Shown here piece by piece: positions 31,759 through 35,315 of a stretch of 35,477 nt of DNA (positions within the stretch are counted from its first letter, which is position 1; every line of letters begins with the position of its first letter). The notes beneath the pieces were generated by a model. That model worked only from the letters and a program-made list of their open reading frames with translations. It was not told the DNA's origin and searched no databases. The position numbers and the translations under genes were made by a program. The stretch spans positions 1 through 35,477 of the forward strand of contig MEEW01000009.1 of NCBI GenBank assembly GCA_001724985.1, written 5' to 3'. The DNA is from Phenylobacterium sp. SCN 69-14. Lineage in GTDB: Bacteria; Pseudomonadota; Alphaproteobacteria; Caulobacterales; Caulobacteraceae.

Positions 31759-32363
31759 CCAACCGCCCGGCACCGCTTGGAGCACAGACTCCGAACAGCG
31801 GTCATGCGACGCGGCCAACGCCGTGGCCCAATCGACAAGTTCAAGAATTCTAACGCCTGCTACAACTCCAAAGCTGCGCGCCTGTCGGGCGGGTATGAGT
31901 TCGCCTCGTTGTGGACCGCTGCCCGCCGCAAACCGGGAGTGGCCGGCGCTCGCGCGACCCGCGCGCGATGTAGCCAAGCACGCCAGCGGCGGGAGTCGTC
32001 AAGCGCAGCGAAGCCTCTCCCGCACGCGGCGTGAGGCGCCCGCCGAGGAGCCGATCACAATATTGTTTTTCAGCGAGTTCGGGGGCCGCCAACGGCCGCG
32101 GCGCGCTTTGACGCGTGGCGAAACGGCCCGAGGGCGGGTGAGACGACCGCCATGCTTAGAGTCTGGAATCTTTAGGAGCTAATAGTATTAGAAATAGCAA
32201 AATTCATAACAATTCGTGCTGCAGTATGTATAATTCTTCATTCAGATTAATGAACATCGCGGCCAATTTTTCGGCGTTTGGATTCCCGTTTTGTTCGAAT
32301 ACTTAACCTTACTCGCGATTGGCGAGCCGCCGCCCCAGACGGGCGTCATGAAAAAGGTTCTGT

Positions 32364-32552
32364 ATGAGCTCCACGAAGTTCCAGCTGCTGTCCTGGCGAA
32401 AACTGCAGCCTATGATCAGCGTCTCGCGCACCACCTGGTGGCGCATGATCCAGGCCGGCTCTGCGCCGCGCCCTATTCAAGTCTCGCCCGGCCGGGTCGC
32501 CTGGCTGGAGGCCGATGTGATCGCGTGGCTTGAGGCGCGACGACCAGCCTAG
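32364..32552 (+). CDS. AlpA-like / MerR-HTH_17-like DNA-binding protein
   Basis: MSSTKFQLLSWRKLQPMISVSRTTWWRMIQAGSAPRPIQVSPGRVAWLEADVIAWLEARRPA, typical AlpA/excisionase pattern. Confidence 0.65.
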   Translation: MSSTKFQLLSWRKLQPMISVSRTTWWRMIQAGSAPRPIQVSPGRVAWLEADVIAWLEARRPA

Positions 32553-32635
32553 CAATGAAGCGCTAGCGGTGAGCGGGAGGAGCCCGGCCACCGCAGCGCC
32601 CTGATCTTGGGCCGACGTGCGCGCGCCCCAGCGAT

Positions 32636-32823
32636 GTCCCCTCGCCGTCCCCTAATTGTCCCCTGGACGTCCCCTTTTTGTCCCCGACCGGGGTCTTGAG
32701 AGTCCGAATTGTCCCCTTTGTGTCCCCTCGCTGTCCCCTCGCCTCCGGCTTGCACCCTTGGCGTACTCGCGTTGGCGCCTGGATGTACTCTGGAAGTACC
32801 CGCGGCGTACTCGCGACGTACTC
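32636..32823 (+). repeat. Phased direct-repeat array: GTCCCC set then GTACTC set, 11-bp period
   Basis: GTCCCC at 32636, 32647, 32658, 32669, 32680, 32711, 32722, 32733; GTACTC/GTACCC at 32763, 32785, 32796, 32807, 32818 (degenerate GCACCC 32752, GGCGCC 32774). Confidence 0.9.
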
Positions 32824-32910
32824 CCGCTCAGGTTCATAGGACTGAGCGCCTCCCAGCCCTGCCCTGCGCACTGAATTGCCTGAGAATATCGCCCCCCTGC
32901 GCCCTTAAGG

Positions 32911-32945
32911 CGCTGATACACCATACGCACCTCGCGGGTGCACGC
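32911..32945 (-). promoter_or_regulatory. oriT: Candidate MobF-type oriT nic region (hairpin + nic)
   Basis: Minus strand GTGCACC-CGCGA-GGTGCGTATGGTGT/ATCAGCG; strong resemblance to R388 GCGCACCGAAAGGTGCGTATTGTCT/ATAG (recalled); predicted nic between 32918 and 32917. Confidence 0.65.
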
Positions 32946-33074
32946 AGCCAATTGAATTTACACATCTTTTCAGTCCGCCCCGAAGGGCGTCGCACTACGG
33001 CACAGTCTACGCGTCGCCAGCAAAGCCAAGCCCGATAAGGGCCTACCGCACTACCAGCAGCATTCCCGGAGCCC

Positions 33075-33431
33075 ATGCGTTTCTCAGACCCCATTCAACT
33101 CCGCCTTGAGCCTCAAAAGCGCAACGAACTCGAAGCGATTGCGGCCTCGCGCGGCATCCCGCTCTCCGAACTCATTCGAGAACGACTAGACCAAATGGCG
33201 ACCACCCTCGCCTCGATCACGAGCCTGCGGCTCGCTTTGGCCGTCGATGAGAAGCGTGCGCCTCAACCCGAAAAGCCGCCTGAGGCCTTTCCCGTCGAGA
33301 TCGAAGCGATGCTCGCCGAAATCCTGCTCACGCTGAGAGAGACCACCCCTGATGCTAAGCGCCGATATGTTCAGCTGCAGCTAAGGCAAATGTCTCTGCC
33401 GACCTGGAGTGACGCTCCCCGTCGGCGCTAG
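33075..33431 (+). CDS. TrwA-like RHH relaxosome accessory protein
   Basis: MRFSDPIQLRLEPQKRNELEAIAASRGIPLSELIRERLDQ resembles the R388 TrwA N-terminus; immediately upstream of the TrwC-like gene. Confidence 0.72.
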   Translation: MRFSDPIQLRLEPQKRNELEAIAASRGIPLSELIRERLDQMATTLASITSLRLALAVDEKRAPQPEKPPEAFPVEIEAMLAEILLTLRETTPDAKRRYVQLQLRQMSLPTWSDAPRRR

Positions 33432-33437
33432 CACACG

Positions 33438-35315
33438 GTGCTCAGCCACCAGATCCTCACGCGGCAGGATGTCGGCGACGTCGCCAGCTACTATGGCGAC
33501 GGCGCGGACGACTACTATGCAAAGGAAGGCGAGGCGCAGACCTGGCAGGGCCGAGGCGCTGAAATGCTCGGCCTTGTCGGCTCCGTGGACAGTCGGCGGT
33601 TCAGGGAGCTGCTAGCGGGCAAAATTGATCCGGACGGCGCACCGGTCCGGTCCTCCACTCGCGACGACAGCAAGTCGCGCATCGGCATCGATCTGACGTT
33701 CTCTGCGCCCAAGGGCGGTTTGGCCGAGGCCGAGGCGCAGTCGCGGCTCCAGGCAGACGCCGCCTCCGGCCGCCTTGTCATGGTGGAGGCGCGTTACACG
33801 ACGCCGGAGGCCCTGGCGAGGGAGCACGAAATCCTGCGGATCGAACGAGACGGCCGTAGCGCCTTAGCACCAGTGCTTTCGCTGCCGGACGCCGTCGCAC
33901 ACTTCGCTGACCGGCCATTGAACAATGGACAGCGATCGGCTGCCACGATGATGCTCTCCTCCAGCAACCGCGTGGTCGGGATCGAAGGGTTCGCCGGCAC
34001 CGGCAAAAGCCACATGCTTCGCTTCGCCACCGAAAAGATCGAGGCGCAGGGATACACGGTACGGGCGCTTGCCCCCTACGCCGGACAGGTCAAGGCGTTG
34101 CGCGGCCTTGGGGTCACCGCCAATACTGTGGCCTCCTTCCTCCGCGCGAGGGAACAACCGCTTGGACCAAAGAGCGTCCTGGTGATCGATGAGGCCGGGG
34201 TCGTGCCCGCCCGCCAGATGGCCAAGCTGCTGCAAACAGCCGAAAGCGCGGGAGCGCGCATCGTGCTCATCGGCGATCGCGCTCAGACGAAGGCGATCGA
34301 GGCCGGCCGTCCCTTCGACCAGCTGATCCGCAACGGCATGACAACGACCGAGATGGCGGAGATCCAGCGGCAGACCGACCCGAGGCTCCGGGAGGCGGTC
34401 GAGCTCGCCGCAAGGGGCCGTGCTGCGCCCTCGCTGGCGAAGGTCCGCAACATCGTGGAGTTGGAGGACGATACGGACCGGCGAACTGCAATCGCGCAGT
34501 CCTACGCCGAGCTGACGAAGTGGGATCGAGAGCGAACTCTGATCGTCGCCGGTACCAATGAAGCACGGCGAGAAATCAATGCCTTGGTGCGCGAGGCGAT
34601 CGGCACTGCCGGCGAAGGCAAGCAGGCGTCCTTTCTCGTCCGTCGGGACACCACCCAGGAGCAGCGTCGGTACTCGCGTAACTACGATGTCGGCGACACG
34701 ATCCAGCCGGAGCGTGACTACCCATCTGCAGGGCTCGTTCGAGGAGCCCTCTACACGGTTGAAGAAAATGGCCCCGGCAATCGATTGACCGTTCGGGCTC
34801 AGGACGGTGCAGCCGTCGAATTCAGCCCGTACAAATGCAGCAACCTCTCGGTCTACCAGACCGAACGCGCAGAGCTCTCAAGGGGCGATCTGGTCCGCGT
34901 GACCCGCAATGACGCGGCCCTCGACCTCGCAAACGGCGATCGGCTCCGGGTGGCCTTTCAAGTTCGCTCCACCGTCGTCCTCACCGATGGTGTTCGCACC
35001 ATCCATATGGACGCGAGCCGCCCCCTGCACCTAGACCACGCATATGCGACCACCGTGCACAGCAGTCAGGGCCTGACCACCGATCGCGTCTTCATCGAAG
35101 CGACCACGACCAGCCGAACGACCGCCAAGGACGTCTACTACGTTGCGATCTCACGAGCCCGCAGCGAGGCCCGCATCTTCACCAACGACCGCGAAGCCCT
35201 GGGCAACGCGATCAGCCGCGAGAACCCGAAGATCGCCGCAATGGACCTGACGACACCAAAACGGGCGCTGGATCGCGCGAAACGCGTGGAAGAGCTGGGT
35301 GATCGAGAGCGGTAA
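33438..35315 (+). CDS. MobF/TrwC-like protein with relaxase core deleted; helicase domain intact
   Basis: GTG start: (M)LSHQILTRQDVGDVASYYGDGADDYYAKEGEAQTWQGRGAEMLGL...RIGIDLTFSAPKG, then directly the post-relaxase linker and SF1 helicase (GFAGTGKSHML, VLVIDEAG, HAYATTVHSSQGLT). 625 aa. Confidence 0.88.
   Translation: MLSHQILTRQDVGDVASYYGDGADDYYAKEGEAQTWQGRGAEMLGLVGSVDSRRFRELLAGKIDPDGAPVRSSTRDDSKSRIGIDLTFSAPKGGLAEAEAQSRLQADAASGRLVMVEARYTTPEALAREHEILRIERDGRSALAPVLSLPDAVAHFADRPLNNGQRSAATMMLSSSNRVVGIEGFAGTGKSHMLRFATEKIEAQGYTVRALAPYAGQVKALRGLGVTANTVASFLRAREQPLGPKSVLVIDEAGVVPARQMAKLLQTAESAGARIVLIGDRAQTKAIEAGRPFDQLIRNGMTTTEMAEIQRQTDPRLREAVELAARGRAAPSLAKVRNIVELEDDTDRRTAIAQSYAELTKWDRERTLIVAGTNEARREINALVREAIGTAGEGKQASFLVRRDTTQEQRRYSRNYDVGDTIQPERDYPSAGLVRGALYTVEENGPGNRLTVRAQDGAAVEFSPYKCSNLSVYQTERAELSRGDLVRVTRNDAALDLANGDRLRVAFQVRSTVVLTDGVRTIHMDASRPLHLDHAYATTVHSSQGLTTDRVFIEATTTSRTTAKDVYYVAISRARSEARIFTNDREALGNAISRENPKIAAMDLTTPKRALDRAKRVEELGDRER

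Follow-up and report, generated by a model that had tools for sequence, protein, structure and literature searches.

In plasmid R388 the binding of StbA restrains transfer and secures segregation, and TrwA binds oriT DNA. StbA binds there to the stbDRs, ten 9-bp repeats that are divided into two sets of five and separated by 2-nt spacers (PMC3098194), and these sites thus do have the 11-bp period for which the preliminary description of the present locus had likened them to its repeats. Direct repeats one helix turn apart are also bound, with low sequence specificity, by proteins of the BldC and excisionase type (PMC7498355), and rdfS is located upstream of oriT and the relaxase (PMC11963761).

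The locus analysed here lies at the right end of a 35,477-nt stretch of DNA (the window), which is an entire 35-kb contig of a Phenylobacterium MAG of 2.69 Mb and 77% completeness (G000). An AlpA-like gene, an array of direct repeats, an R388-type oriT core, a trwA-like gene and a trwC-like gene follow one another there in this order (Table 1), with the array about 94-280 bp from the nic site.

Table 1 Features at the right end of the window
Feature	Position	Strand	Basis and remarks
AlpA-like winged-HTH gene, 62 aa	32364..32552	+	Pfam Phage_AlpA E 6e-5; excisionase/BldC-like fold
Array block 1	32636..32685	+	GTCCCC five times at 11-bp steps (32636, 32647, 32658, 32669, 32680)
Array block 2	32711..32738	+	GTCCCC three times at 11-bp steps (32711, 32722, 32733)
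Array block 3	32763..32823	+	GTACTC at 32763, 32785, 32807 and 32818; GTACCC at 32796
R388-type nic core	32904-32931	- (cleaved strand)	Pattern match; by comparison with R388 the cut should lie opposite 32917/32918
Inverted repeat GCACC-TCGCG-GGTGC beside nic	32927..32941		Sequence; putative relaxase-binding hairpin by analogy
TrwA-like ribbon-helix-helix gene, 118 aa	33075..33431	+	Weak RHH matches; tblastn to trwA of R388-like plasmids
TrwC-like MobF relaxase-helicase gene	33438..35315	+	Internal in-frame gap; HUH motif missing

The array, the transfer origin and the element around them

The array contains two classes of hexamer, as previously proposed, with eight copies of GTCCCC and five of GTACTC/GTACCC, and every claimed unit of these words was found at its expected position on the plus strand. 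Eight of the 11 GTCCCC on the plus strand of the window fall inside it. Autocorrelation of the segment, which had been suggested as a check, gave a self-match of 0.50 at lag 11, whereas lags other than 11 and its multiples mostly stayed near 0.27. Nowhere else in the whole window does a 188-bp stretch score better at lag 11 than the one beginning at 32625-32628 (101/188 matches). Windows simulated 200 times under a Markov-1 model and scored at lags 7-15 never rose above 88, so that a chance or low-complexity origin of the array is ruled out. The preliminary description had a single 11-bp step running through the whole array; this holds within the blocks but not between them, where the steps are 31 bp (32680 to 32711) and 30 bp (32733 to 32763), leaving three blocks in three registers. 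Of the two degenerate units that it had added, GCACCC at 32752 is passable, but GGCGCC at 32774 shares only 2/6 bases with GTACTC and is not credible.

The oriT suspected beside the array was borne out by a TrwC-type nic site adjoining it, with trwA downstream. The core was sought with the pattern CTTAA-N(4-12)-ATASACMATACGCACC, which matched in 7/101 genomes of the genus and nowhere in the controls, and gave 34 stretches in the species-wide collection; several of the matches (for example L036, L049 and L052) have neither a TrwA match nor an array and are probably due to chance. The trwA-like gene starts 172 bp from the nic core in the window, and this distance is about 172-178 bp there and in many relatives.

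The element itself has decayed. When compared with pMBUI4 TrwC, the TrwC-like product covers residues 1-92 and 407-918, and the equivalent of 93-406 is gone together with the HUH motif; a search of the window relaxase for P-x-[LF]-H-x-H found none. The tyrosine residues of the MOBF catalytic pair are kept. The sister trwC in G053 has another internal gap as well as a frame break. These breaks look like decay, though an assembly error in these MAGs is possible. In the window trwA and trwC are not separated by a trwB, and the same is true of the sister copies in G053, G057 and G081. Much of the same contig (17547-27056) is taken up by a TonB-dependent receptor and by genes for type II secretion (GspC, D, E, F and L), and since the secretion cluster looks chromosomal, the relic of the element is probably integrated in the chromosome.

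Place, period and word at related origins

At the origins found by the nic core, as much as 305 bp of upstream sequence was scanned at lags 7-15. In 27 of the 38 testable origins lag 11 was the best, and the period was significant (p<0.01) in 26/38. Strong arrays were present even at three origins with no nearby trwA or trwC, and the persistence of arrays at origins without a relaxase gene close by suggests that they are a working part of the origin and not only an element of the stb promoter. With one word fixed per locus, and with loci that are partly related, 108 inter-unit steps were exactly 11 bp, and of 21 further steps (9-70 bp, not multiples of 11) all but one fell 1-4 bp short of a multiple. 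The short joins between blocks look as if they took back the excess turn that builds up when sites 11 bp apart lie on DNA of 10.5 bp per turn, although a Rayleigh scan of the block gaps could not distinguish periods of 10.5 and 11 bp. Gaps between blocks of 10, 20, 21, 30-32, 41-43, 52 and 54 bp were seen at L017, L020, L029, L031, L034, L037, L042, L061 and other loci, lengths that approach full turns at 10.5 bp per turn. The place on the nic side, the 11-bp period and the arrangement in blocks are common to related origins and to R388, and by these marks the array belongs with the stbDRs.

The words themselves differ widely: GCATCA, GCTAY, GTCCYA, TGTACY, GTCTCA, GTCGAA and CTTCCT were found at other loci. 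The only GTCCCC triple elsewhere in the genus and order (L012, in G024) lies outside any oriT context and is unrelated. Even between sister elements the word changes. Blastn aligned the window with G053 at 86% over 32269-32599 and at 93% over 32885-33717, with no alignment in between, where the array lies; by segment, identity was 95.5% for trwA, 90% from core to trwA, 85% for alpA and about 45% over the length of the array. The G053 array has nine GTCTCC in the repeat GTCTCC-TCCTT, spaced by 11 bp at seven of the steps and by 21 bp at the remaining one, and three other sisters have TCTCACTTCCT. All of these are nearly perfect tandem repeats, and units therefore seem to spread by slippage and to diverge later.

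These comparisons bear on the earlier view that the units are phased same-face binding sites and not products of slippage. Its positive part is upheld by place, period and blocks, and by the co-variation of word and StbA described below; its exclusion of slippage is not, since the variation of the spacers leaves slippage possible. A failure of homologous loci to conserve hexamers or spacing was to count against binding sites. The hexamer does change between sisters, but position and 11-bp step are kept, and on these the conclusion that the units are binding sites stands.

Two further observations concern the make-up of such regions. In L044 and L059 (G057 and G081) the interval between alpA and oriT holds, besides the array proximal to nic, CGTACCT/CGTAGGT repeated every 11 bp and GTAGATC spaced by about two turns, which indicates that a single intergenic region can contain more than two classes of word. 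At L082 (G005), L083 (G065) and L084 (G068), where the origin has no relaxase and the 11-bp array is very regular, the neighbouring genes are for restriction-modification (MmeI-type IIG and GmrSD-like; HsdM/HsdS); oriT and array there look like a mobilization cassette for defence islands.

StbA-type and other candidate readers

Where stbA adjoins the array, the repeat word follows residue 4 of the StbA recognition helix, as far as can be judged from few, partly related pairs whose words were picked after the loci had been seen. The helix was predicted and assigned by alignment; a structure of the StbA domain exists (PDB 7pc1). Serine goes with GCA (TFRS in IncW, Oligella and Acidiphilium, TLKS in Pseudomonas, and TFKS in Solidesulfovibrio, grouped here by eye, its array having no 11-bp period), lysine with GTC (TFRK in Xanthomonas, Zoogloea and the L032 MAG, LLRK in Phenylobacterium), and asparagine mostly with GCTA (TFYN in pMBUI4 and P. 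silesiensis, TFRN in Pandoraea). L100, where TLKN pairs with TGTA, falls outside the simple Asn-GCTA rule, and L040 lacks the 11-bp period. The Zoogloea StbA is, outside the helix, nearest to StbAs of the serine type (63-65%), yet it has the lysine helix and a GTCC word, which looks like a joint switch of helix and word. Under this rule the GTCCCC blocks of the window would be of the lysine class, while GTACTC falls into none of the classes.

As previously noted, stbA is not beside the array: searches with two profiles and NCBIfam StbA_2 gave no credible StbA in the window, in the rest of G000 (77% complete), or in G053 and in G081, the latter 99% complete. On a separate small contig of G057 (contig 8, L085:3057-3386) a divergent StbA-like protein of 109 aa is encoded directly downstream of trwA (weak NCBIfam StbA_2 match, E 0.038; its strong profile match is to itself). 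It might be a divergent reader whose gene lies across oriT from the array.

Judging from these sequence comparisons, the array is probably an stbDR-type element at a MOBF oriT, made for coating by an HTH protein of the StbA family, its copy in the window being a relict or served in trans. StbA-type monomers would load on successive repeats, nearly on one face of the DNA; the 11-bp step and the shortened gaps would together hold the bound monomers near that face, and the loaded monomers would form a compact nucleoprotein patch beside nic. The most likely reader of the window copy is of the StbA type, probably of the lysine (GTC) class, acting in trans or lost, with AlpA in second place. The missing stbA and the cut relaxase would make this copy either a relic or one served by the StbA of another element. 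What counts against StbA as the reader is that the searches gave no credible StbA in G000, G053 and G081 and only the divergent protein in G057, and that one array contains two word classes.

The AlpA-like protein is the array's neighbour in the window, as in G053, G057 and G081, and might coat it head-to-tail as an RDF or transfer regulator that took over an stbDR-like array without stbA. As at RDF operators, an excisionase-like winged-HTH protein is encoded nearby; its AF2 model (pLDDT 88.6) matches in the PDB the excisionase 8c3t best and then RdfS and BldC, the low specificity of such proteins (PMC7498355) would tolerate a change of word, and rdfS has a similar place upstream of oriT and relaxase (PMC11963761). 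However, two architectures exist. In the first (window, G053, contig 33 of G057, G081) the order is alpA-array-oriT-trwA-trwC with no linked stbA; in the second (G018, G046, G055, G068) it is alpA-trwA-trwC-oriT(reversed)-array-stbA, so that the array is linked to alpA in the first but sits with oriT and stbA in the second, where alpA has no array beside it. This weakens the case for AlpA from linkage alone. Moreover, AlpA has the identical helix RTTWWR in both architectures, whereas the words of the arrays differ completely. Together these findings favour a reader of the StbA type and leave AlpA a less likely but serious alternative. A bolder version, in which AlpA took over the array beside oriT in stbA-less Phenylobacterium elements, or two proteins each read one word class, so that control of transfer was tied to excision, appears rather unlikely. 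The relatives of the AlpA-like protein in plasmids are distant AlpA proteins only. In L080, L081 and L085 the alpA-oriT module is repeatedly accompanied by an SSB gene and an HNH-nuclease-like gene; L080 and L085 also share a conserved protein, about 200 aa long, that matches no Pfam family, and L080 has a tyrosine integrase about 12 kb away.

The position of the trwA-like gene directly downstream of oriT would fit TrwA as the binder of the array, but trwA is 95.5% identical between the window and G053 while the arrays cannot be aligned, in the second architecture the array lies about 3 kb from trwA, past trwC, and origins with no trwA nearby keep their arrays, which makes this highly improbable. 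The broken relaxase, the recently expanded look of the sister arrays and the fast divergence of the array sequence are what would be expected of a tandem-repeat relic upheld by slippage only and with no present binding function. Such a relic is nevertheless improbable, since in the window the hexamer stays the same from unit to unit and the spacers do not, unrelated words in many genera share period and place, and pure slippage would fix neither an 11-bp unit nor gaps of nearly whole turns.

Comparison with known systems

The StbA-type reading extends the R388 arrangement of stbDRs and StbA to mobile elements of alphaproteobacteria, in which the place of the array and its 11-bp step are conserved while the word turns over quickly. 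It also suggests a code, open to testing, between one residue of the StbA helix and the first three bases of the repeat, which could explain how co-resident elements avoid each other's StbA and would allow arrays to be paired with readers from sequence. Of more interest than the copy in the window are the array word, which changes fast and apparently to match its reader, and the class of elements that lack stbA.

Like the stbDRs of R388, the window array lies between the stb side and nic, with trwA downstream of nic, and consists of directly oriented repeats of 11-bp period in more than one block. It differs in its words, having GTCCCC and GTACTC in one array where R388 has the 9-bp word TTGCATCAT, and in its surroundings, with an alpA-like gene in place of stbA or trwB beside the array and a decayed relaxase. 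The R388 word is also missing from other StbA-linked arrays, and since these vary, the word does not define the wider stbDR kind. Repeats between stbA and trwA, in the same place and at 11-bp steps, occur in pMBUI4 (GCTAY), in MOBF plasmids of Xanthomonas (GTCCTA) and in Pseudomonas plasmids (GCACCC); the GTCC of Xanthomonas is close to the GTCCCC of the window, but in all of these stbA adjoins the array, with a helix of the matching class. The sites of phage 186 Apl, lambda Xis and BldC resemble the array in being direct repeats one helical turn apart with a winged-HTH protein encoded nearby. Unlike these operators, the repeats described here follow oriT rather than alpA, and their word changes while the AlpA helix stays constant.
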